From positions 294-64,293 of the forward strand of contig NZ_VDGI01000004.1 of the NCBI RefSeq assembly GCF_006861825.1: 64,000 bases of DNA. The letters run 5' to 3'. Made by a program: the position numbers and the translations under genes. How positions within the stretch are numbered: the stretch's first letter is position 1; the number at the start of each line of letters is the position of its first letter. This document shows positions 8,666 through 48,346 of the stretch, piece by piece. The notes beneath the pieces were generated by a model. The model worked only from the letters and a program-made list of their open reading frames with translations. It did not search any database and was not told the DNA's origin. Source of the stretch: Psychrobacillus vulpis. GTDB taxonomy: Bacteria; Bacillota; Bacilli; Bacillales_A; Planococcaceae.

Positions 8666-9577
8666 CTATAAATACTTGCGTATTTCTTGAGTTAGAAAAT
8701 GGACACGTTTAACATAGTAATCTCTTTTTTCGGAATCATTTATGAAAAAGGTGAACAATATAGATAACATTAAAGCAGTATCAAGTCTATATATTGATTG
8801 TATAACTGCATCAGTATTTTTGATAATGTCTACTTCTTTATATCCTTTTAAAAATTCACCCTCATTCAACTCTTCAGATTCAGAAATTCTCATTAACTCC
8901 ATTATTGGATTTCCAATAATGGCATTATCCCAATCTATAATCGCTTTAATTTTTCCATTTTCCCCTATTAAATTTGGCTGCCTTACATCAAGGTGTAGCA
9001 AACTATTTTTTGTTTGTGAAGTATCCAAAATTGTTTCAAATTCTTCTTGACTAGGTACAACAATATTAATATTCATTAGTTTACTTAGTGATTTAACTCG
9101 TTCTGCTATTCTGTGAGAAACAATGTTACTCAAAGTCCGTTCATTTTGATCGACAATGGATAGACCATCCAACGGAACTGTATGTATTTTAGATGTAAGC
9201 TCTCCAATGTCGTAGGAAGAAATCTCTTGATTATCCCCCGATACAAAATCAGATACTAGAAAGTTTATTTCATTACTTAAATACAACTTATGTATTTTTG
9301 GTACTGGTATTTGATATTTGTGACAATGCTCTGAAATAGTTGCTTCTTTTTTTAAGGAGATAATTCCACTTGAATCTTTATCCATCATATTTTCTTCTGA
9401 TCTCCAAGGTGTCCTCACTGCAAGTTTCCCTAAATTTTTCTCGTTTATTAGAAAGACAGCGTTTACTACTCCGTTGTCTATAAAGCTTATCTCTTCAATT
9501 TGCCAGTCAAGTCTTTTATTTAGAACATTAAGTATACTCATACTTAACTTTTCTATTGTATTATTTGTTAAAATCAT
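8666..9577 (-). CDS. Aminoglycoside phosphotransferase-fold kinase
   Basis: This 303-aa kinase of the APH/choline kinase fold has a catalytic loop LLHLDVRQPNLI, in which D and N supply the base and a metal ligand, and the metal-binding IDWDNAIIGNP follows. Both are the standard Brenner and DFG-equivalent motifs. The N-terminal lobe is recognisable only by position. Start at ATG 9577 after AAAAAGGA. The substrate may be an aminoglycoside, a sugar or an unrelated alcohol; nothing in the neighbourhood decides this. It is one of three APH-like kinases in the window. Confidence 0.8.
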   Translation of the reverse strand: MILTNNTIEKLSMSILNVLNKRLDWQIEEISFIDNGVVNAVFLINEKNLGKLAVRTPWRSEENMMDKDSSGIISLKKEATISEHCHKYQIPVPKIHKLYLSNEINFLVSDFVSGDNQEISSYDIGELTSKIHTVPLDGLSIVDQNERTLSNIVSHRIAERVKSLSKLMNINIVVPSQEEFETILDTSQTKNSLLHLDVRQPNLIGENGKIKAIIDWDNAIIGNPIMELMRISESEELNEGEFLKGYKEVDIIKNTDAVIQSIYRLDTALMLSILFTFFINDSEKRDYYVKRVHFLTQEIRKYL

Positions 9578-37803: not shown

Positions 37804-40800
37804 TTAGTTTGCAGGTGTTATTTGCAAAGAAACTTTATGATTTGCAATTGTCATTTCTGTTCCCTCTTCAATATTATCTTTTATCTGTAATTTACGCATT
37901 AACAAGTTTTGTTGTAACATCTGCTTATACTTTTCAATTACTATTTGCAGTTCTTCGTCTGTTTTTAAAGCAATATCTACACGCATATCGATAGGAAGGT
38001 TTAATTGCTTTCTATAAGATTGGATTGCGCGAATCAATTCACGAGCCATTCCTTCTTGTAGGAGTTCTTCTGTTAGAGAAAGATCTAAAGTAACGGTATA
38101 CTCCCCATTTGTTGCAGAAGCATATCCTTCCCTTGCTACTTTTTCTATTAGTACATCTTCTAGCATTATTTTAACTTTTTCCCCTATAGTTCCCTCTATA
38201 GAGCCCGACTGTATAAGTTGTTTTACTTGCTCCTCATTTAAAGATTGGAGCCATGTATTAATTGCATTCGACTGCTTTCCAAATTTCGATCCCGCTTTTT
38301 TAAAGTCGAGTTTTATCAATGTTGATACAAATTTCTCATCATTGTCTATTTGCTCAAATAGCTTAACATTTAATTCGTCTTTTATAATATCCTCATACAA
38401 TTTCCAATTTACATCTTTATTTGAGCTCATTAATGATAAACTACCTAAAGGTTGTTTAACTTTTAATGAGGTCGTATTTCGTATACTTCTTCCTAACTCT
38501 ACGACTTGAAGAACTGCATCCATTTCTTTTTCAAGTTTTTCATTTATCACGTTTTCGTCATGAATTGGATAAGCTGATAAATGTACACTTTCACCAGTTA
38601 AACTCATAAATACATCTTCTGCAATAAAAGGGGTCAATGGTGCTAATAATTGGCTAATTTTTGTTAACACCTCGTAAAGAGTTTGATATGCAGCAGCTTT
38701 TTCAGGATTCATATTAGTCGACCAGAATCTTTCTCTAGAGCGTCTTACATACCAATTACTTACTTGCTCCAATAACTTGGCAATTTCTCTAGCCGCGTTT
38801 GTAAAGTGATAATCATCTAAGTTAACGTGAACTGTTTTTATCGTGCTATTCAAGCGAGATAATATCCATTCATCCAATTTATTTTTATTTACTTCATACG
38901 AACCTTTTGGGTTGTAGTTATCCAAATTAGCATATAACGTATAAAAACTATGAACATTGTCTAGTGTATCAACTAATTTGGATTTAGCCTCTTGTACAAT
39001 ACGTTCTGAGAAACGTTTCGGATTCCAAGGTGCACTATCTACTAATAATGCCCATCTTAATGAGTCAGCACCGAATTTTTGAATTAGCTCTACAGGATCT
39101 AGTGCATTCCCTTTACTTTTAGACATTTTTTGTCCGTTTTCATCTAAAATATGCCCTAGAGATAATACACGTTTGTATGGAGCTTTACCTGTAAACAATG
39201 TAGACACTGCTAATAAGCTGTAAAACCATCCACGAGTTTGATCAATTCCTTCAATAACAACATCTGCGGGGGATTGCTTTTCGAAAAGCTCTTTATTCTC
39301 GAAAGGATAATGGTATTGTGCGAATGGCATAGATCCACTATCGAACCAAACATCAATTACTTCTGGTGTTCTTATCATTGTTCCTTCACACTGTGAACAT
39401 TTTAGCTTAATAGTATCAACGTATGGCTTATGCAAATCTACGTCCTCTAGTGGAAAAAGGGAATGATTTTTTAAATCCTCCATACTTTTAGGTGCATATT
39501 CGTGATCACACGCTTCACATTGCCAAATATTTAACGGTGTTCCCCAATAACGTTTACGACTAATATTCCAGTCTACCATTTGCTCTAAAAAGTTTCCGAA
39601 TCTCCCATGTTTTATATGTTCCGGATGCCAAGTAACCGTATCATTATTTTGTATAAATTGTTCTTTTAGGGCAGTTGTTTTAATAAACCAACTGTCGTTA
39701 GCGTAATACAATAAAGGTGAATCACAGCGCCAGCAGTGGGGATAACTATGCTCGTATTTTTCTTTACTAAATAATAATTCTCTTTCAGCAAGATTACGAA
39801 CAATATCCACGTCACAGTCTTTGACAAATCTACCTTCAAAGCCTGTGACATCTGCAGTATACTTACCTTTTTCATCTACAACATTAATAAAAGACAAGTT
39901 ATTTTCTTTCACAACACGATAATCTTCTTCTCCGTATGCAGGAGCTAAATGGACAATTCCTGTACCACTTTCAGCAGATACATAATCAGCCATTATCACT
40001 TTATGCCCGTTCTCCACATTAACAAAATTAAATAATGGTTCATAAGGAATGTCTATTAAATCTGACCCAAGATGTACAGAAATTATTTCATAGTTTTCTT
40101 TTAAAACGGATTCTACTAATGCTTCTGCTAAAACGAAAATGTTATTCCCATGTTTCGCTCTAACATATTTCAACATTGGATTAACAGCTAACGCAACATT
40201 TGCTGGTAATGTCCAAGGGGTTGTCGTCCATCCAAGAAAGAATTCATTATCCCTATCTTTTATTTTAAATTTGGCTGTCGCAGATAAATCTTTTACAATT
40301 TTGTACCCTTGTGACACTTCATGAGAACTAAGAGATGTTTGACAACTCGGACAATACGGCGAAACTCGATGGCCTTTCTGAAGCAATCCTTTCTCATGAA
40401 TTGATCCAAGAATATTCCATTCGCTCTCAATATACGAATTACTCAATGTTAAGTATGGATCATCCATATCTACCCAATAACCGAGCTGCTTAGTAAATTC
40501 TCGCCACTGTTTTTCGTAAACAAAAACACTTTCTTTACATTTTTCAATAAATGCTTCCACACCGTATTTTTCGATTTCGTTTTTCCCTGAAATACCTAAT
40601 TGCTTTTCAACACCTAACTCTACAGGAAGCCCATGCGTATCCCAACCAGCTTTTCTAATGACTTGATGACCTGTCATTGTTTTATATCTTGCAACAACGT
40701 CTTTTATTGTTCTTCCTAATGCATGACCAACATGTGGTAACCCATTAGCTGTAGGTGGTCCTTCGTAAAAGACAAATGAAGGATGCTGTTCTCTTATTTC

Positions 40801-40893
40801 AATCGATTTATTAAATGTCTCCTCTTTTGCCCATTGTCTTCTTATCCGTGCTTCCCTTTGCAAAACAGTTTCTTTGTTGTTCGTTGTAACCAA
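37804..40893 (-). CDS. ileS: Isoleucyl-tRNA synthetase, large type-2-like form
   Basis: This 1029-aa class I synthetase charges tRNA-Ile in the cytoplasm. The ATP-binding signature is [20 protein letters not shown] (HVGH at 54-57) and the second is [13 protein letters not shown] (about 588). An editing CP1 domain ([15 protein letters not shown]) and zinc-type cysteines (YCPSCQ, WRCDSP) are present. The length and [12 protein letters not shown] wording match eukaryote-like IleRS2 enzymes, which resist mupirocin, rather than the roughly 920-aa type 1. HVGH is unswapped, so it is not the hyper-resistant variant. An Ile T-box leader precedes it. Whether a type 1 copy exists elsewhere is unknown. 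Confidence 0.95.
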
Positions 40894-40933
40894 TTGATAT
40901 CACTCCTAATTGTTTTATATAAAAACATACAAA

Positions 40934-41175
40934 AAACCCGTCCCTGTAGAAAGGGACGGGTTTAACCGCGATACCACCCTAATTCTATTGAAAACATTTA
41001 TTTTCAATAGCACTTAGCCACGTACTATCATACGCGTTCCTTTTAACGGTAGACACCCGGTCTCACTTACTTTAATTCAGCTCGACTTCTCAGAGAGGAT
41101 TTTCACTTGGGATCTGAACACCGGCTTTCAGCATCTACCGGCTCTCTTTAGAACAGTTTCACAAATTACTTTTTC
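40934..41175 (-). ncRNA. Isoleucine T-box leader of ileS
   Basis: On the minus strand the T-box AGGGTGGTATCGCGG (40980-40966) precedes an 11-bp terminator stem (40963-40953 with 40944-40934) and T6. Stem I contains AAAGAGAGCCGGTAGATGCTG and a specifier region GTGAAAAUCCUCUCUGAG. The codon AUC (41100-41098) marks isoleucine, matching the gene. Confidence 0.95.
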
Positions 41176-41210
41176 TCATCAACGAATTTGTATGGTTTTA
41201 TTGTGGATAA

Positions 41211-41239
41211 ATTTATCATAAAGCTACACTCATTGTCAA
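41211..41239 (-). promoter_or_regulatory. Promoter of ileS
   Basis: TTGACA (41239-41234) and ATAAAT (41216-41211) with a 17-bp spacer on the minus strand, just upstream of the T-box. Confidence 0.55.
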
Positions 41240-41333
41240 TCAAATTGAAGGTGCATTTCCAGTATTATTAAAAACGTGAATACAGCATACCTTATTTAAG
41301 TCATTCCATAATTCTACATACAATTTAGGCAAG

Positions 41334-41887
41334 TTAATTTCTATTTTGATAATAAATTAGCATGTCCGTCCATTCCTCTTTTTCTAAAGAAAATCGTTCT
41401 CTCTTACATTCAAATTTAAAACCAGCTCGCTCTGCTAATTTTTTGGATGGTACATTATCGGTATTAATATGTAATTCAATACGGTGAAAGTTCAATTCAA
41501 AAAAGAATAATTCAGTTGCTGCTTTTACACTTTCCAAACCATATCCATTTTTCCAAAACTGATTATGTATGGAATATCCCATCATTGCCCACTGGTAATC
41601 CATTCTTAAAATTGTAAATAGTTCTACTTTACCTCATTAACACCATCTTCTTTTCGAAATAATCCTAAATTGTACATTTCATCTCTCTCAGAAGCTTGTT
41701 GAAATCCTTCAATCCAATTGGTAAACCATTCTTTTGAGTAATTGGACATATTTGATTGTCCATCATCGTATTTATATTGAGATGGTAGACGATTGTTGAA
41801 TCCCGAATACCAATTAGCATAATCTTCTACTAAAAACGGTCTAATGATAAGATTTTTTGTCTCTTTATATAAAGTTGTTTTTTTCAA
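41334..41887 (-). pseudogene. Broken GNAT (RimJ/RimL-type) acetyltransferase gene
   Basis: Two minus-strand frames form one GNAT. The first (stop at 41624) begins MKKTTLYKETKNLIIRPF and ends LGLFRKEDGVNEVK. The second continues as GKVELFTILRMDYQW and carries GYSIHNQFWKNGYGLE and NVPSKKLAERAGFKFE, the C-terminal GNAT blocks. One base appears to be missing near 41632-41636. Together they would make about 184 aa. The gene ends without an obvious terminator. It could be a decayed gene or a sequencing error. Confidence 0.75.
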
Positions 41888-41972
41888 ATGTAAATCACCC
41901 CACTTAAATAAAGAAAGAACCTCATTTTGAAAGAATAATTGTCAAAACAAGGTCACCATATATTGAACTGCA

Positions 41973-42209
41973 TTACAAAAGAATTTGTTTTCTTTCCGGT
42001 TTAAGTCTTTTAAATTTAATATAATTCCCGAAAGCCGTTACGAAAGATATTAGAGCGACTATTTTTAAAACATGAAAAGGATTCAAACCTAATTGGGAAC
42101 CAAAAATACTTGGAATACTGGCACTAGTTAATAGTAATGCTGTTGTACCTAAAGAAATCGAAAACCAAATCGTTTTTCGGATTTTAGTTAATTCCAAACC
42201 TTTTACCAT
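41973..42209 (-). CDS. Small membrane protein (78 aa)
   Basis: Two hydrophobic segments (IWFSISLGTTALLLTSASIP; VLKIVALISFVTAFGNYI) and basic ends (KGLELTKIRK, KFKRLKPERK) suggest a two-span membrane protein. AAAAGGAG lies directly against the ATG at 42209, so a slightly later start (TTG after VKG) is possible. It follows the terminator of the peptide-regulator unit and is not part of it. No family is recognised. Confidence 0.55.
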   Translation of the reverse strand: MVKGLELTKIRKTIWFSISLGTTALLLTSASIPSIFGSQLGLNPFHVLKIVALISFVTAFGNYIKFKRLKPERKQILL

Positions 42210-42287
42210 CTCCTTTTATAGATCGATATTTCCATCAATACATGTAAAAACTAACTTAAGTACTATTTTCATTGCAAAGTTAAAGAC

Positions 42288-42322
42288 ACTCATCAGCTTC
42301 AAATACCTTGAAGCTGATGAGT
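42288..42322 (-). terminator. Terminator of regulator-peptide operon
   Basis: A perfect 15-bp stem (42288-42302 with 42308-42322) and a 5-nt loop lie 34 bp after the peptide gene stop codon. Confidence 0.85.
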
Positions 42323-42355
42323 ACTATACAAATACTAGATCTCTATAACTTTCTA

Positions 42356-42487
42356 TTAAAAGAAAGATTTGTCTATAGATGTTGGTCTAGGCGCTTCTTC
42401 TTCAGCAAATTTACTCGCTTTCGGTGTAAAACTTAACGTCAATAGGAAAGCTAAAGTTAAACATATTAATAAGTTTTTCTTTTTCAT
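42356..42487 (-). CDS. Exported pro-peptide, putative RRNPP signalling peptide
   Basis: This 43-aa protein starts at the ATG 42487, one base after the regulator's stop, with GGGAGG inside the regulator's last codons. It has a textbook Sec signal: MKKKN, hydrophobic LLICLTLAFLLTLSF, then TPKAS-KFA. The remaining tail EEEAPRPTSIDKSFF is short and acidic to polar, as in Phr, NprX and PapR precursors, whose C-terminal 5-9 residues are the signal. A mature peptide within PTSIDKSFF is likely. This coupling of a tiny exported peptide to an HTH-TPR receptor gene is the standard layout of NprR-NprX. The sequence itself is unlike peptides I know. Confidence 0.8.
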   Translation of the reverse strand: MKKKNLLICLTLAFLLTLSFTPKASKFAEEEAPRPTSIDKSFF

Positions 42488-42488
42488 T

Positions 42489-43796
42489 TCAGAAATCCTC
42501 CCATTTCTTAATAAAATTTTGTTTGAACAAAACTTGATTGGATTTTTGATAATACAAACTAGCTGCTTTAAACTTATTTTGTTCAAAATAGTAATTTGCT
42601 AATAAAATAGAATACTTTTGTACATGGCGATCATCATGAACCATTTCGAAAAAATTTATACTTTTCTTTAGTACCGACTCAAGGTCATTTGTTAATGAAT
42701 GAAGAGCCCTATATATTTCAAAGTGCCAATAATAGGAATCAGTTTCAATATTAATTTTATGCTTTACTTCCTCTATAGCTTCAAGACCTTTTTTACACCA
42801 TCTAAGGACCGCTTCATGATCAGCTTGCTTGGAATACTCCTTAATAATAGAAAGAATAGTTATTAAATATCCTTCCACATTATTGTTATCTTCCTTGCTC
42901 TTTAGACTGAGCTTATAATACTCAATTGCCTTATCATGACTCTCCTGGATTGCATGCAATGAACCAATGTTTTGATAGATCATTCCCTCATAATTAGACA
43001 CTTTATAATCTTTCACAAGTTTTTTGGCTAAATAATAGTTCTTCTCTGCTTCTTCGTATCTCCTCATTTTTTTGTGCGCCATACCCATAACGATATAACT
43101 ATCAATAGCTCTTTCAAATAACAAATTATCTTTATAGTACATTAGTGATTTTGATGCATGATTAATCGTGTTAAAGAGTTCATTACATTTGAAATAAATC
43201 AAGCTCAAAATATTGTGATAATCTGCCACCTCCCATTCCTCAATTGATATATTATTCATTAATTTCCTTGTGCCCTCTAATTGGTTTAATGCTTTATAAT
43301 AATCACCATTTAAATAATAGTACAGACTTAGATTTAAATTACTTATAAATCTTTGCTTGTCGTCGAAATGATGTTCCATTTTTTTTATAACATCATATGT
43401 CGATTGTAAGTTCTCAATCTTTTCATTCAATATTAACATCAGTCGAAACATAAAGAGGTTATAAGTATAAAAATTGCTCAATTGTAACAAATATATCTTT
43501 TGGACAGAGAATCTTCGCAAGGATTCTTTGATTATCTTCTTATCTCTCAGAATAACTCCATTTTTATACAGTTCAAAAATATCTTCTAAAAACTTATTTT
43601 CCTCTTCGTTTGACACTTTTGTTATCTCTAAATTTAGCCTATCCAGTAATAAATTTATGACTTCCTCACTTGGAACAGTTGAATTATTTTCAATTTTGCT
43701 GAGATAGGATGTAGAACAGATACCTTTTGCCAATACAGTCTGTTTAATATTCTGGTTTAATCTCTCCTGTTTGATGATATATCCTATACTACTCAT
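42489..43796 (-). CDS. HTH-TPR regulator of the RRNPP type (NprR-like)
   Basis: This 435-aa protein has an N-terminal XRE helix-turn-helix (IGYIIKQERLNQNIKQTVLA, TSYLSKIENNSTVPSEE; residues about 4-60) and then roughly nine TPR helical pairs, for example LNLSLYYYLNGDYYKALNQL, YIVMGMAHKKMRRYEEAEKN and NIGSLHAIQESHDKAIEYY. Size and architecture fit NprR (about 423 aa) better than PlcR (about 285) or AimR (about 380-400). Members bind an imported peptide that changes DNA binding. The next gene, one base away, encodes the likely cognate peptide. A divergent sigma-factor operon 540 bp away is a candidate target. Confidence 0.87.
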   Translation of the reverse strand: MSSIGYIIKQERLNQNIKQTVLAKGICSTSYLSKIENNSTVPSEEVINLLLDRLNLEITKVSNEEENKFLEDIFELYKNGVILRDKKIIKESLRRFSVQKIYLLQLSNFYTYNLFMFRLMLILNEKIENLQSTYDVIKKMEHHFDDKQRFISNLNLSLYYYLNGDYYKALNQLEGTRKLMNNISIEEWEVADYHNILSLIYFKCNELFNTINHASKSLMYYKDNLLFERAIDSYIVMGMAHKKMRRYEEAEKNYYLAKKLVKDYKVSNYEGMIYQNIGSLHAIQESHDKAIEYYKLSLKSKEDNNNVEGYLITILSIIKEYSKQADHEAVLRWCKKGLEAIEEVKHKINIETDSYYWHFEIYRALHSLTNDLESVLKKSINFFEMVHDDRHVQKYSILLANYYFEQNKFKAASLYYQKSNQVLFKQNFIKKWEDF

Positions 43797-44337
43797 TTTT
43801 CCCCACCTCTATGAATGTAGTACATGTATTAATTCGTTAACAAAGTAAAAATACCTTTATCAATCGTTCGACATATTGTGACAGTTCGTACAGGTCTAAG
43901 AACTGTTAATGATAAATATAATACATTTATATGCAAAACATCCTAAATTTATTATGAATTATTAAAATTTCCTTCTTTCGAGAAATATGAATTAATTAAG
44001 TGAGGATAAAGGTAAAAATATAGAGAAATTTCCCAACCTATTTTTGTACTAAAAAAGGATAAATTTTAGTAAAATTTAGGAAAGATATTTAATTATTTAC
44101 CAATTAATTCATAACTGATTTTGCCTATCGGACAAGTAAACCTCCTATTTAATTTAGAGCAAATATGCCCCTATTCCATTTATTGAACTTAAATAAGATT
44201 TATTTTTAAAGTGGTTGTCAAATGATCAAATAAATCCCCTTTATAGGACAAGATAAATCTTTAATCCAGAAAATAACCCATTATTTTTCACACGCCAAAA
44301 TCAGAACGTAGATTCTTTTCTGTGGAGGAGTGATAAA
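43797..44337. other. Divergent control region of regulator and sigma operon
   Basis: This is a 541-bp AT-rich region with no gene. It holds the inverted repeat at 43881-43906, a plus-strand TATAAT at 43917-43922 and a possible TTGTCA/TTTATA pair near 44216-44246. The SD GTGGAGGAG of the sigma gene lies at about 44322-44330. Confidence 0.55.
43881..43906. promoter_or_regulatory. Inverted repeat ACAGTTC-N12-GAACTGT
   Basis: Perfect 7-bp arms (43881-43887, 43900-43906) lie 85 bp upstream of the HTH-TPR regulator start and overlap the -35 position of a plus-strand TATAAT (43917-43922). The spacing of about two helical turns fits a dimeric XRE regulator site. Confidence 0.5.
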
Positions 44338-44853
44338 ATGAATCCGGAAAAACTAAAAGTAGTTCAAGAGTTCCTAAAATGTCCTGCAAACAGAGCACTT
44401 CTTGAAGAGTATCATGCTACTAATTCAGAAGAAATAAAATTAATAATTGATAATAAATTTAAGAAATTTTATCAAAACTTTAGAATTTTATCCTATCTAA
44501 TAAAGGTAGTGCACTATGAAAGTAAACATTTTGATAGAAAAGTTCGCGATCATAGAAATCGGTACCAACTTACCCTTACGGATAATATAGATATTTCCCC
44601 AATTTACTACGAGAAATCTTTTTCAGATTCACTTGGTCTATCTGAAGATATTTTGGACCATATATCAAACGATAAACTATTTAATTGTTTAAGAAATCTT
44701 ACAGGTAGGCAAAAAGAAATACTTTCACTTGTTTTCGTTAGGCAAATGACTGATAAAGAAATTGGTCAGTATTTAGGTATTACACCTCAAGCAGTCTCAA
44801 AGACAAGAAGAAATGTAATTAAATATATAAGAAAGGAGCTTACTTATGATTGA
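44338..44853 (+). CDS. SigO-like RNA polymerase sigma factor
   Basis: This 171-aa protein has a clear C-terminal sigma region 4 (LRNLTGRQKEILSLVFVRQM, DKEIGQYLGITPQAVSKTRR; about 115-168). The N-terminal part is only weakly region-2-like (KFYQNFRILSYLIKVVHYES). This resembles B. subtilis SigO (YvrI), which needs the small co-factor RsoA to supply region 2. The ATG follows GTGGAGGAG. The next two genes are YvrJ and an RsoA-like protein, in line with the sigO-rsoA-yvrJ locus. The target promoters are unknown. Confidence 0.82.
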   Translation: MNPEKLKVVQEFLKCPANRALLEEYHATNSEEIKLIIDNKFKKFYQNFRILSYLIKVVHYESKHFDRKVRDHRNRYQLTLTDNIDISPIYYEKSFSDSLGLSEDILDHISNDKLFNCLRNLTGRQKEILSLVFVRQMTDKEIGQYLGITPQAVSKTRRNVIKYIRKELTYD

Positions 44854-45019
44854 TGCAGGGAACATCGTACAATTAATTGGCAACTTTGGATTTCCAATTG
44901 TAGTTACCATTTATCTATTGCATCGTTTTGAGAATAAAATAGACTCCATTGTAAACGCCATTCATAGTATGGAAAACTCGGTGAACAACACAGTAGAAAA
45001 AAAGAAAGGAGGAAAATAA
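44846..45019 (+). CDS. yvrJ: YvrJ family small membrane protein
   Basis: This 57-aa protein overlaps the sigma-factor stop by eight bases, with an AGAAAGGAG SD. It has the YvrJ signature, a single membrane helix starting at the N-terminus (NIVQLIGNFGFPIVVTIYLL) followed by an amphipathic segment (RFENKIDSIVNAIHSMENSV). YvrJ proteins accompany SigO/RsoA-type sigma systems in bacilli, and similar small holin-like proteins occur in phages. Its role is unknown; membrane tethering or signal input is conceivable. Confidence 0.8.
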   Translation: MIDAGNIVQLIGNFGFPIVVTIYLLHRFENKIDSIVNAIHSMENSVNNTVEKKKGGK

Positions 45020-45020
45020 A

Positions 45021-45218
45021 GTGGACGAATATGATATCCTGTCAATTTTGAAACAACTAGAACCAAAGCTGAAGAGTGTATTATTTCAAACAAGCGATGA
45101 CTACCGTGAAGACCTCGAACAAGATTTAATAGAGCGTATTATTAAAATCATTAAAAATAATATTAATCACGACTGTCCAGGATTTTTTGACTTTTTAGGT
45201 GAAGAACTGTTTGTTTAG
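45021..45218 (+). CDS. Small RsoA-like co-sigma protein
   Basis: A 65-aa protein with a GTG start one base after the yvrJ stop and an AAAGGAGG SD in yvrJ's last codons. The central stretch KSVLFQTSDDYREDLEQDLI is like the start of sigma region 2 in RsoA and ECF-like factors, where the REDLEQE motif helps bind the RNA polymerase beta' clamp. With the region-4 protein at 44338 it would make a two-subunit sigma factor. The identity is inferred from motif, size and position. Confidence 0.6.
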   Translation: MDEYDILSILKQLEPKLKSVLFQTSDDYREDLEQDLIERIIKIIKNNINHDCPGFFDFLGEELFV

Positions 45219-45285
45219 TTAAACTGGTCTACTTTATGAAGGGGTGAACATTCTATTAATAGAATAACAATTACATTATTGGAAA

Positions 45286-45318
45286 TAACCCCATCTGTAT
45301 GTAGATGGGGTTAATTTG
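45286..45318 (+). terminator. Terminator of sigma operon
   Basis: TAACCCCATCT (45286-45296) pairs with AGATGGGGTTA (45303-45313), followed by a T-rich stretch. Confidence 0.75.
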
Positions 45319-45384
45319 TTTATTATCGTACTTTCGTTTCATTAACGAGATGTACTATCTATTATCAGTTGGGCTGTTGCGCAC

Positions 45385-46026
45385 TCAAGTAGTAAAATGA
45401 GTAACCAAGGCATTTAATGGATTAATAATAATTGTTGAAGTCTCATTCTCTACATTTGTAGATGCTTGTACCATTGATAATTGGGCAACGGAGATCACTT
45501 TCTTTCCGTCCTTAATAGCATTTTTCAAGGACTTGGAAACTTCTTGATTGTATTCTTCTTTTAGTCCTCGCATTAACAATTCAAATGCATTATCAATAAC
45601 AAAAGCTTCCACATCTAATTCTTTTTGATGAGATTTGGCATACTGATGCAGTCGCTCCATTGTACCTGAAACAGTTGCAGCATTTGTAAAAAAAATCACC
45701 TGAGAATCCTTTATATTACAAATTACTTCAAAAAAAGGCTCATCAATTTTTATTATCGGGATGGATTCCGAAAGTTGACTATCGTTTAATAAAGCAATGT
45801 AGTTCGTACAAGTGATAAGAATTGCATCTATATTACTTTTGGCAATCCATTCAATTTGTTCGTTAACCTTATTTTGAGCTTCGAATTTCTGTAGTCTTCC
45901 ATCACTTGTTAAAAGGTTCATTAATCCAGGATCTACAAAATGAATTAATTCAATCTGATCTGATGAAAGGGCACTTTCTATGTAATCAATATTCGAATAA
46001 TGTGCGTGTAAGCATGCTAACTTCAT
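45385..46026 (-). CDS. Asp/Glu racemase-like protein
   Basis: This 213-aa protein has the racemase superfamily fold pattern. ILITCTNYIAL (about 69-79) corresponds to the first catalytic Cys motif (usually TCNT), and GTMERLHQYAK, VISVAQLSM and an INPLNALV ending follow. The second catalytic Cys is not evident, so it may be a non-racemising member. The ATG follows GGAGAGATTAA and is 17 bases after the HD gene, in one operon. The substrate is unknown. Confidence 0.65.
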   Translation of the reverse strand: MKLACLHAHYSNIDYIESALSSDQIELIHFVDPGLMNLLTSDGRLQKFEAQNKVNEQIEWIAKSNIDAILITCTNYIALLNDSQLSESIPIIKIDEPFFEVICNIKDSQVIFFTNAATVSGTMERLHQYAKSHQKELDVEAFVIDNAFELLMRGLKEEYNQEVSKSLKNAIKDGKKVISVAQLSMVQASTNVENETSTIIINPLNALVTHFTT

Positions 46027-46043
46027 TTAATCTCTCCAATTAA

Positions 46044-46685
46044 TTAATATTCTATATTTGTATAGATTGTTTTTTCCACACCTGGAAGGAGCGAATAAAT
46101 ACTCATATCAATTAATGATTCTATCTCTTTTTTTATCTTATAAAAACCCTTCCAGCGGATCGCAGTATATGAATTAGTCCCATGTCTTAAACCAACTGAA
46201 ATAAGACGTTTTTCAAGTGTCGTAAATCCGTTTTCATCAGCTAAAGCATCGCACAATGTGATTACCTTATTGTAAATATCGTATTTAGCGTTCTCCTTTA
46301 ATACTTGTACTAGCTTTTCTTTCATAAATGGTGGGACATATTCCCATTCAGCAGAGTTTTCTATATGGTTATTTTCACAAGGAAAAGAATGTGTCACACA
46401 TATAATAGCATTCCCTTTAAAGCCAAGTTCATCCAAGTAAACATAACCGTCATATGAGTGTATAACAGATTTGGTAAATCCCTTGTACCTACCTATATCA
46501 TGTAAAAGTCCCGCATTATAAGCAATGTCACAATCCAGATTAAACCCTCTAATCTTTAGTTCTAACATGATGTTTTCAGCAGCTTTTGCTACATTCAGTG
46601 AATGTTTATACCAAGGGCCAGGGTTTTGTTGGTAAGCATGCTCCAATAATTCTTTTGCATACGTTCTATCCGTTATATAATTCAT
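46044..46685 (-). CDS. HD domain phosphohydrolase
   Basis: This 213-aa protein carries an HD metal site: HSLNVAKAAENIM, then NAGLLHDIGRYKG (about 56-68) with the HD pair, a third histidine region HSYDGYVYLDELGF, and DALADENG. It is similar in size to metal-dependent nucleotide or sugar phosphohydrolases. Its start overlaps the HAD gene stop by four bases. The operon HAD-HD-racemase-like suggests a small metabolite salvage or damage-repair path, which is inferred. Confidence 0.8.
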   Translation of the reverse strand: MNYITDRTYAKELLEHAYQQNPGPWYKHSLNVAKAAENIMLELKIRGFNLDCDIAYNAGLLHDIGRYKGFTKSVIHSYDGYVYLDELGFKGNAIICVTHSFPCENNHIENSAEWEYVPPFMKEKLVQVLKENAKYDIYNKVITLCDALADENGFTTLEKRLISVGLRHGTNSYTAIRWKGFYKIKKEIESLIDMSIYSLLPGVEKTIYTNIEY

Positions 46686-47338
46686 ATGCCAAAATGAAGT
46701 GTGGTTTCAGTTAGCACTTGTTTAAATTGTTTTATTTCCTTCATTATTAAATTCGGCTTTGTAATAAAATCAAGCGTTTGATAATCTGCTAACCAATGTA
46801 CTCCAATCGTATAAACATCGGCACGAACTCCCGCTAGTATATCTGCCTCACTGTCCCCTACAAATATTGCTTCATCTTTTTGTACATCTAAAAGAGCTAA
46901 TGCCTTTATTATTCCCTCTGGATGGGGTTTCGGATCTATTACATCATCCCCAGTTATTATTACATCAAACAGATCTTCCATATCCAGAGCTTTCAACGAG
47001 ATATCTAAGCTTCTTTTTGCCTTTCCTGTAACAATCCCGAGCTTAATACCTTTTTCTTTTATATATCTTAATAAATCATCAATATCGCTATTTCTTTCAA
47101 CTAATTGTTTATGTTTTTCAAAATACTTTTCATAATACATTTCGATTGCTTGTTCTTTGTTTAGATCTAGAAGATTCTCTCTAATTATCCCTGTCTCCGA
47201 AGGACCAAACATGGCTTTTATATCTTCAGAAGTAAGGTCTTTATTATCGTATTGTTTAAAAACATGTTGAAATGCGTAATAACAAATAGGTAAAGTATTA
47301 GCAAGAGTGCCGTCAAAGTCAAAAATTATAGCTTTCAT
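46682..47338 (-). CDS. HAD hydrolase, phosphoglycolate phosphatase-like
   Basis: This 218-aa phosphatase has motif I IFDFDGTLANT (residues 4-14), motif II VTGKA (about 104-108), the Lys in DVIDPKPHPEG and motif IV FVGDSEADILAG. The C1 helical cap (about 15-90) is typical of PGP/beta-phosphoglucomutase-type HADs. The ATG follows TTTGGAGG. It is the first gene of the HAD-HD-racemase-like operon. The substrate is unassigned. Confidence 0.88.
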   Translation of the reverse strand: MKAIIFDFDGTLANTLPICYYAFQHVFKQYDNKDLTSEDIKAMFGPSETGIIRENLLDLNKEQAIEMYYEKYFEKHKQLVERNSDIDDLLRYIKEKGIKLGIVTGKAKRSLDISLKALDMEDLFDVIITGDDVIDPKPHPEGIIKALALLDVQKDEAIFVGDSEADILAGVRADVYTIGVHWLADYQTLDFITKPNLIMKEIKQFKQVLTETTLHFGI

Positions 47339-47455
47339 AGAGTACCTCCAAATATCGTAATATATATATTCCTAATTTTACTAAAATTTTATATTTTATC
47401 ATACTATGTATTTAACAATAAGCTATTGGCATAATGATTCGAAAATTATTAGATA

Positions 47456-48346
47456 CTATATAAGTACTTTATTTATTGCTTCTATCAAAATGTCAGGTCT
47501 ATCAAGATAAATAGAATGAGTAGATTGTTTTGCAAAAATTAACTCGCTATTTTGGGACAGATTACATTGTTTCCTAATAAGTTCTTGCCAAGTTTTCTCA
47601 AATAATCTTATCTCCCACTCTGGTAACCCTTCTTCAATCCCAATTTCGATATTATAGTCCTTATCACGCCCAATAACCACGAGGGGAATATCATTGATTC
47701 CACCTAATCTCTTTATAATCTGCGCATCCTTCTTCCAGTTTTCCACTTCAGCCTTCATTGTTTTATATAATTCAGGTTTCAGTTGAAATTCGATTAAGTG
47801 TTGTTGAACATCATGTCGTAGCAGTTTTTGCTTTTTCGTAAGTGTAGGATTAATTATTTTTCTTAATTCTTCCTTAGTAAGTAAAGAATAACTCATACAT
47901 TTCCGAATCCATTCCTCATCTGATGATTCTTCATTTATTATTGGTAAATCTAGCATATCTAACATCTCTAAATCCTCTGAAGTAGAATCTACTAAGACTA
48001 GTCCTCTTACTTTTTGAGGATACATTTTCACAAAATGCTGTGCACACAATCCACCATACGAATGGCCTACCATTAATACTGGTTCCTCAATTTCCAGTAA
48101 TTTTAACAATATATTAGTTTCTTCGACTGTTTGAATTGTGTTACGTTCCCTTTCACTGACTTCACTTTCTCCAAGTCCAGGTCTATGAAACATGATAACT
48201 CTATTAGTATCACTAATAGATTCTGTTACCTCGTACCATTCTTCAAAAGAACAACCCATTCCGGTTAGTATAACTATAGGTGTACCTTTTTTTCCTTTAA
48301 GTACAAACTCGAATCGCTTATTATTAATCATAACAAATTGATGCAT
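47456..48346 (-). CDS. Alpha/beta hydrolase
   Basis: This 296-aa serine hydrolase has the nucleophile elbow VGHSYGGL (about 92-99), an oxyanion strand GTPIVILTGMGCSFEEW, an acid near VVIGRDKDYN and a C-terminal catalytic His in AKQSTHSIYLDRPD. It is a typical alpha/beta fold with a helical cap at about 130-210. The ATG has an AAGGATG SD. It is monocistronic. The substrate, an ester or epoxide-like compound, is unknown. Confidence 0.85.
   Translation of the reverse strand: MHQFVMINNKRFEFVLKGKKGTPIVILTGMGCSFEEWYEVTESISDTNRVIMFHRPGLGESEVSERERNTIQTVEETNILLKLLEIEEPVLMVGHSYGGLCAQHFVKMYPQKVRGLVLVDSTSEDLEMLDMLDLPIINEESSDEEWIRKCMSYSLLTKEELRKIINPTLTKKQKLLRHDVQQHLIEFQLKPELYKTMKAEVENWKKDAQIIKRLGGINDIPLVVIGRDKDYNIEIGIEEGLPEWEIRLFEKTWQELIRKQCNLSQNSELIFAKQSTHSIYLDRPDILIEAINKVLI

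Follow-up and report, generated by a model that had tools for sequence, protein, structure and literature searches.

The stretch of DNA from the soil bacterium Psychrobacillus vulpis described here (the window; 64,000 nt, NCBI RefSeq GCF_006861825.1, contig NZ_VDGI01000004.1, positions 294–64,293, forward strand) contains a leftwards-transcribed gene for a receptor-like protein with a helix-turn-helix (HTH) domain and tetratricopeptide repeats (TPRs), closely followed by a small gene for a putative exported propeptide, and a divergent, rightwards-transcribed operon that includes a yvrJ gene. Features are listed in Table 1. A sequence-only reading had described the two leftwards genes as a quorum-sensing receptor and its pro-peptide; what it observed, the two adjoining genes and the terminator shared behind them, is confirmed, and its interpretation is supported in part.

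Table 1. Features of the receptor-propeptide locus and the divergent operon (window positions).
Feature	Position	Strand	Evidence or remark
Terminator-like hairpin, 18 pairs, receptor-propeptide operon	42286-42324	-	hairpin scan
Exported propeptide (predicted), 43 aa, MKKKNLLICLTLAFLLTLSFTPKASKFAEEEAPRPTSIDKSFF	42356-42487	-	one base past receptor stop; conserved in 18/18 orthologues
Pheromone core EEEAPRPTS, codons 29-37	42377-42403	-	column conservation; thought to hold the mature signal
Propeptide stretch EEEAPRPTSIDKSFF			spans windows such as APRPTSI, EAPRPTS, TSIDKSFF
NprR-like receptor, HTH and nine TPRs, 435 aa	42489-43796	-	domains, fold, orthologues in 18/19 genomes
SigH-type promoter AAAGGTATT-N11-AACGAATTA	43830-43858	-	same spacing and place in 18/18 orthologues
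0A-box-like TGTCGAA	43867-43873	-	loose match to the consensus in 16/18 orthologues
Conserved intergenic block, candidate operator	44024-44096		upstream alignment; dyad TACTAAAA-N9-TTTTAGTA at 44047-44071
Sigma-operon promoter GGTTGT-N18-CCCTTTA	44213-44243	+	also before some sigma cassettes in other places
SigO-like sigma factor, 171 aa, with a clear region 4	44338-44853	+	sigma region 4, E 4.8e-8
YvrJ, 57 aa, small membrane protein, holin-like	44846-45019	+	PF12841, E 3e-16; divergent operon in 18/18
RsoA-like partner of sigma factor, 65 aa	45021-45218	+	NF041489, PRK14082
Terminator-like hairpin of sigma operon	45286-45313	+	hairpin scan

Receptor orthologues are present in 18 of 19 Psychrobacillus genomes, that of P. 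vulpis (G000) included, with 61–100% identity; only G004 has no match. Counts out of 18 refer to this set, with which the separately named loci overlap in species. Profile searches of the receptor return HTH_3 (E 2.4e-9) and TPR_12 (E 1.8e-13), and its predicted fold, with helices counted by hand, has an N-terminal HTH and nine TPRs as in NprR. Fold matching assigns the TPR array to the RRNPPA fold, with NprR and Rap tied as best matches; the structure alignment (A2) holds 37 of 46 fetched loci together with the window protein. In size, which the earlier reading had found to fit NprR best, and in domain order the receptor resembles NprR; identity to NprR is 17% over 348 aa and the NprR contact residues are mostly absent. 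In a tree of 14 of the 18 orthologues and 10 of 12 more distant receptors (group B, 27–32% identical), NprR groups with Rap when unconstrained, both on long branches, and the approximately unbiased (AU) test does not reject a tree that joins NprR to the clade formed by these receptors (p 0.088).

The small open reading frame (ORF) begins 0 or 1 base past the receptor stop in all 18 orthologues, with ATG, GTG or TTG starts, and its dN/dS ratio across the 18 sequences is 0.32 (signal part 0.36, core 0.23). By these comparisons it is more than a chance frame. The Sec signal of its product was judged by eye rather than by a signal-peptide predictor. The conserved feature of the propeptide alignment is E-x-E-x-P-R-P-T-S, in which P, R and T of the core are unchanged throughout, P occupies the third core position in 16/18 (V or I in L018 and L019), and S is likewise kept in 16/18 (G in L012, T in L013). 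Mean column conservation, with paralogue L002 left out and gaps treated as letters, is 0.96 for PRPTS, 0.64 for the signal part, and 0.50, with length changes, for the columns past the following I. We therefore reject the proposal that the signal is the C-terminal PTSIDKSFF. The mature peptide most likely holds x-P-R-P-T-S(-I), because the core is conserved, because relatives have like cores, and because NprX propeptides depart from the usual pattern, in which the signal is made up of the final residues (Bernard et al., PMC10075063).

The P. vulpis genome codes for a paralogous receptor (L002, 49% identity) with tail FAEDEIPRPTFDKPTKK, for two pairs that are more distant (tails KPEITSIGVGKSI and DDLPEPLKVDHPFQ), and for a fifth, distant receptor (L005), for which our script listed no such downstream ORF. 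Like cores are found in the metagenome-assembled genome L042 (59% identity; DELPRPTEVKPFK), in Paenisporosarcina (LPRITSI, IPKITSI) and in Oceanobacillus halophilus (LPDILSI), and 10 of the 12 group-B receptors are followed by an ORF with KP[EKS]IT[SDF]; in L031 the downstream frame is broken by a stop. Some precursors are repetitive: the group-B propeptide of L032 repeats a unit of the type IQDKPDITSINKF five times in tandem, and the Metabacillus and Peribacillus propeptides downstream of the receptor (L061, L063, L064) have three SEPDHPKIV units each. In O. halophilus two identical tandem genes for 48-aa peptides (MVTFLRLVAQLGSKAAKW...; L054:8449-8595 and 8667-8813), which we take to resemble leaderless bacteriocins, lie about 1 kb downstream of the receptor-propeptide pair, and in Paenisporosarcina (L046:4048-7430) there are two tandem receptor genes, whose products have 35% and 46% identity with the window protein. 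The P. vulpis core, PRPTS rather than KPDIVG, does differ from the NprX heptapeptide SKPDIVG (PMC5641580), as had been noted, and the tails of group B and other relatives bridge towards that heptapeptide in sequence.

Recent arrival by virus or plasmid is not supported. In viral contigs, 56 stretches fitted a pattern and none was confirmed, and 29 fitted a degenerate DNA pattern for the core, matches of a kind that chance alone would give; the 16 plasmid records that match the receptor are 24–29% identical, and none of 15 phage records covers 80% of it.

The receptor-propeptide operon is preceded in all 18 orthologues by a SigH-type promoter, 31–34 nt upstream of the receptor start and with an 11-nt spacer. 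Compared with the SigH consensus RnAGGAwww-N11-RnnGAATww, 13 orthologues have 0–1 mismatches, three have 2 and two have 3; paralogue L002 has no such promoter. An 0A-box-like GTCGA element lies 75–79 nt before the receptor start in 16/18 (loose pattern). The genome codes for SigH (over the curated cut-off) and Spo0A, and has ten SBP_bac_5 matches (oligopeptide-binding family). A terminator scan of 42200–45400 finds three such sites, against 0.9 in shuffled sequences.

The divergent YvrJ gene lies upstream of the receptor in 18/18 orthologues. Its product has a match to PHROG 4898, a family that bears the label holin (E 7.1e-9); Pfam gives YvrJ itself and no holin family. The sigma and RsoA-like genes accompany it in 11/18 and are missing in 7/18; the RsoA-like protein scores 26.4 bits with NF041489 RsoA (cut-off 100) and 44.7 bits with PRK14082, both below the curated cut-offs. 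The seven loci without sigma genes form one clade as sampled (five of the seven are in the tree); four of these genomes (G006, G007, G009, G013) have no close sigma relative genome-wide (best E 3e-6 or weaker), and in G001, G015 and G017 a relative is present, but unlinked. The outer neighbours also vary, being ileS, HAD/HD or AspRac genes in some species and transporter genes (by eye) in others, so that the YvrJ adjacency outlasts both the loss of the sigma genes and the change of outer neighbours. The receptor-less G004 has no YvrJ at all. Most genomes hold one or two extra YvrJ copies elsewhere, that of P. vulpis lying behind a DUF2922 gene (L084:3786-4175). Farther out, a GNAT-like acetyltransferase (by eye) is split over two separate frames in the window (41334-41887, leftwards), and L013 and L038 have it in fragments too.

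The promoter of the sigma operon recurs in receptor-unlinked sigma cassettes: of seven, three have it exactly (L090, L129, L133), two nearly (L126, L127), and two lack it (L134, L142). With a spacer of N16..19 it occurs once in the P. vulpis genome, before the sigma gene, and 14 times in the 19 genomes, 10 of these upstream of a sigma cassette (eight of them near the sigma gene, the other two some 420 nt ahead of it). The reversed pattern also gives 14 matches, and therefore only the location of the matches is informative; these locations are consistent with autoactivation by the sigma factor. In L090:3493-5437, L126:3542-5563 and L127:4441-6381, unlinked sigma-YvrJ-RsoA cassettes are followed by an N-acetylmuramoyl-L-alanine amidase gene (Amidase_3 and LysM in L090), a holin-endolysin-like arrangement with a split sigma factor in control. 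By genome, an amidase lies behind the unlinked cassettes of G001, G015 and G017 (Amidase_3 and LysM in G017; the other two are 92% identical to that of G017), and in G012 after a cassette with a partial sigma gene.

Between the two operons is a conserved block, a candidate operator, and the rest of the intergenic alignment (from which L010 was left out) is mostly visibly less conserved. TACTA is present in 18/18 orthologues and TGGGAAA in 16/18 (TGTGAAA in L020 and L021), and in L008 both arms of the dyad are altered together (CTATA ... TATAG). The anchored 28-nt score is 0.84, against a mean of 0.45 and a maximum of 0.52 at random positions (2000 draws, kinship uncorrected). The 28-base pattern has one exact match in the genome, at this locus, and one three-mismatch match elsewhere (control, 0). 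At the Rfam gathering threshold there are no matches in the intergenic region; the sole match in 40000–47500 is a T-box leader upstream of ileS (RF00230, 134 bits; 40949-41191, leftwards).

We consider it probable that the locus is an RRNPPA quorum-sensing pair of NprR architecture that operates in the transition phase, with the receptor acting locally on the YvrJ operon. The genes, their order and conservation, the predicted fold and the conserved DNA sites are observed, and the genome has SigH, Spo0A and binding proteins of the Opp type. The SigH-type promoter would turn on the receptor-propeptide operon late in growth. By analogy with the RRNPPA family, the 43-aa propeptide would leave the cell via Sec and be cleaved before E-x-E by signal peptidase, and extracellular proteases would then trim it to a short peptide containing (E-)x-P-R-P-T-S(-I). 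An oligopeptide permease would re-import this peptide, which would bind the TPR groove of the receptor. The direction of regulation, by the same analogy, and its target are likewise inferred: the loaded receptor would act at the conserved block and activate the divergent operon, in which the holin-like YvrJ is the one product that never varies, and in 11 of the 18 species the SigO/RsoA-type sigma factor of that operon, probably self-activating, may amplify the switch. The genus-wide pairing beside a holin-like protein suggests that cell density controls YvrJ.

Several observations weigh against this proposal. Taken singly, the SigH-type match beats dinucleotide shuffles at p < 0.05 in only 12/18 orthologues. 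Within the candidate operator, the middle TTTTTAG-like part is absent from L015, L020 and L021, where the right half is also weak, and a perfect dyad with arms of at least 6 is listed in only 6/18 (L001, L007, L009, L010, L011, L022), a count that rests on the two best repeats per sequence. In the sequence alignment the NprX-contact residues R126, W167, H201, N306 and D309 and the Y165-R343 stack correspond to N124, Y166, K203, G309, I312, G164 and H346, and the NprX docking mode is therefore not transferable; the NprR tetramer residue F225 is retained as F227. At 12 loci with distant receptors of Viridibacillus, Rummeliibacillus and Kurthia, no exported ORF was found immediately downstream (at one, only 105 nt could be inspected; the truncated L073 is uncounted), and none was recognised at L062 and L069. 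In the same genera, receptors for which no propeptide was found (L049, L065, L076) have PspA- and LiaFSR-like genes nearby (named by eye). Finally, L002, L042 and Paenisporosarcina have the peptide with no YvrJ found beside the receptor, and YvrJ control is therefore specific at most to this orthologue group; 20 sigma cassettes elsewhere (17 in other genera, 3 in Psychrobacillus) have no receptor within about 5 kb on each side, less at contig ends (two receptor queries, E 1e-3).

These last two observations would also be expected if the pair were real, the YvrJ/sigma operon merely its neighbour, and the receptor acted elsewhere, for example as an NprR- or Rap-like phosphorelay inhibitor released by the peptide. 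The top fold matches to NprR and Rap fit such a role, as do the SigH-type promoter and 0A-like box, which link the operon to the transition phase. We nonetheless think this explanation unlikely, as the YvrJ adjacency survives sigma loss and outer-neighbour change, and the four residues that NprR requires to inhibit Spo0F (D107, Y118, E188, Y223; PMC4970707) are Q105, M116, V190 and L225 in the window protein (by sequence alignment, in which the register may err by one residue), the first being Q as in RapH. That the small ORF codes for some other secreted peptide, co-transcribed with an orphan regulator and not its ligand, is improbable: distant receptors lacking the ORF would be in keeping with it, but the peptide motifs track receptor group (PRPTS, KPxIT, LPEPL), several relatives have tandem core copies, and the layout is that of known RRNPPA systems. 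A plain NprR-NprX system with the function and specificity of the Bacillus cereus group is very improbable, since the shared domain order, size and downstream peptide and the unrejected AU grouping are set against mostly absent NprX- and Spo0F-contact residues, a different core, and low identity.

An extension of the proposed local action on the YvrJ operon, which we put forward only tentatively, is a density-gated holin switch. The receptor would directly control the holin-like protein, with a split sigma factor that amplifies itself placed between the two in most species, and as cells enter stationary phase a part of the population would undergo programmed permeabilisation or lysis. If so, enzymes, DNA or nutrients would be released, and the unlinked sigma-YvrJ-RsoA cassettes with an amidase in some species would be a related holin-endolysin version. 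If the quorum-sensing circuit is correct, PRPTS would be a readable signal code for the whole genus, the receptors would add a clade of NprR-like proteins, mostly from Planococcaceae, in which the contact residues of NprR are missing, and the natural inducer would make the role of the widespread, unexplained YvrJ and SigO/RsoA-type sigma factors testable.

Among known systems, Rap-Phr has a TPR fold that ties as best match and an adjacent exported peptide, and phr genes are SigH-driven; Rap differs in lacking an HTH and is a phosphatase or anti-activator. The control of SigX by ComR-XIP in streptococci is a precedent for activation of an alternative sigma factor by an RRNPP receptor, but with a five-TPR receptor, another route of peptide export, and competence as output. 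NprR-NprX of the B. cereus group (PDB 4GPK, 5DBK) is alike in its receptor (HTH and nine TPRs, about 430 aa), its exported 43-codon propeptide (PMC5641580), and a signal that is not simply the final residues (PMC10075063), with a P-x-hydrophobic-x-[GS] core; the P. vulpis pair is unlike it in its 17% identity, PRPTS core and divergent YvrJ/sigma operon. A plasmid pair of Priestia koreensis FS-1 has a downstream peptide that ends EEEFPEPTVAQVLI, close to EEEAPRPTS, and the tree places it next to the clade of these receptors (91/91 support, long branch); it differs in its 28.8% identity, its plasmid location and the lack of a YvrJ in the incomplete annotation beside it. Judging from strain and plasmid, it appears to be one of two pairs called NprR-NprX by Bernard et al. 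2023. SigO-RsoA of B. subtilis shares the sigma protein, the small RsoA-like partner and yvrJ, which depends on SigO-RsoA (PMC8103513), and differs in that the window RsoA-like protein is below the model cut-off; that account, in its available text, names no RRNPP pair. RRNPPA systems are well known, with 21 new candidate subfamilies from complete genomes (PMC10075063); the main text of that survey does not name Psychrobacillus, Kurthia, Viridibacillus, Sporosarcina, Paenisporosarcina or Planococcaceae, and its supplementary tables may list the pair as a prediction. We found no paper on Psychrobacillus with RRNPP or on NprR with Planococcaceae, and Psychrobacillus is in none of the matches listed for quorum-sensing or signaling-peptide literature. 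Three points are new as far as we have seen: PRPTS as the signal code, a clade of NprR-like receptors that lacks the contact residues of NprR, and the link with an operon of YvrJ/SigO type.
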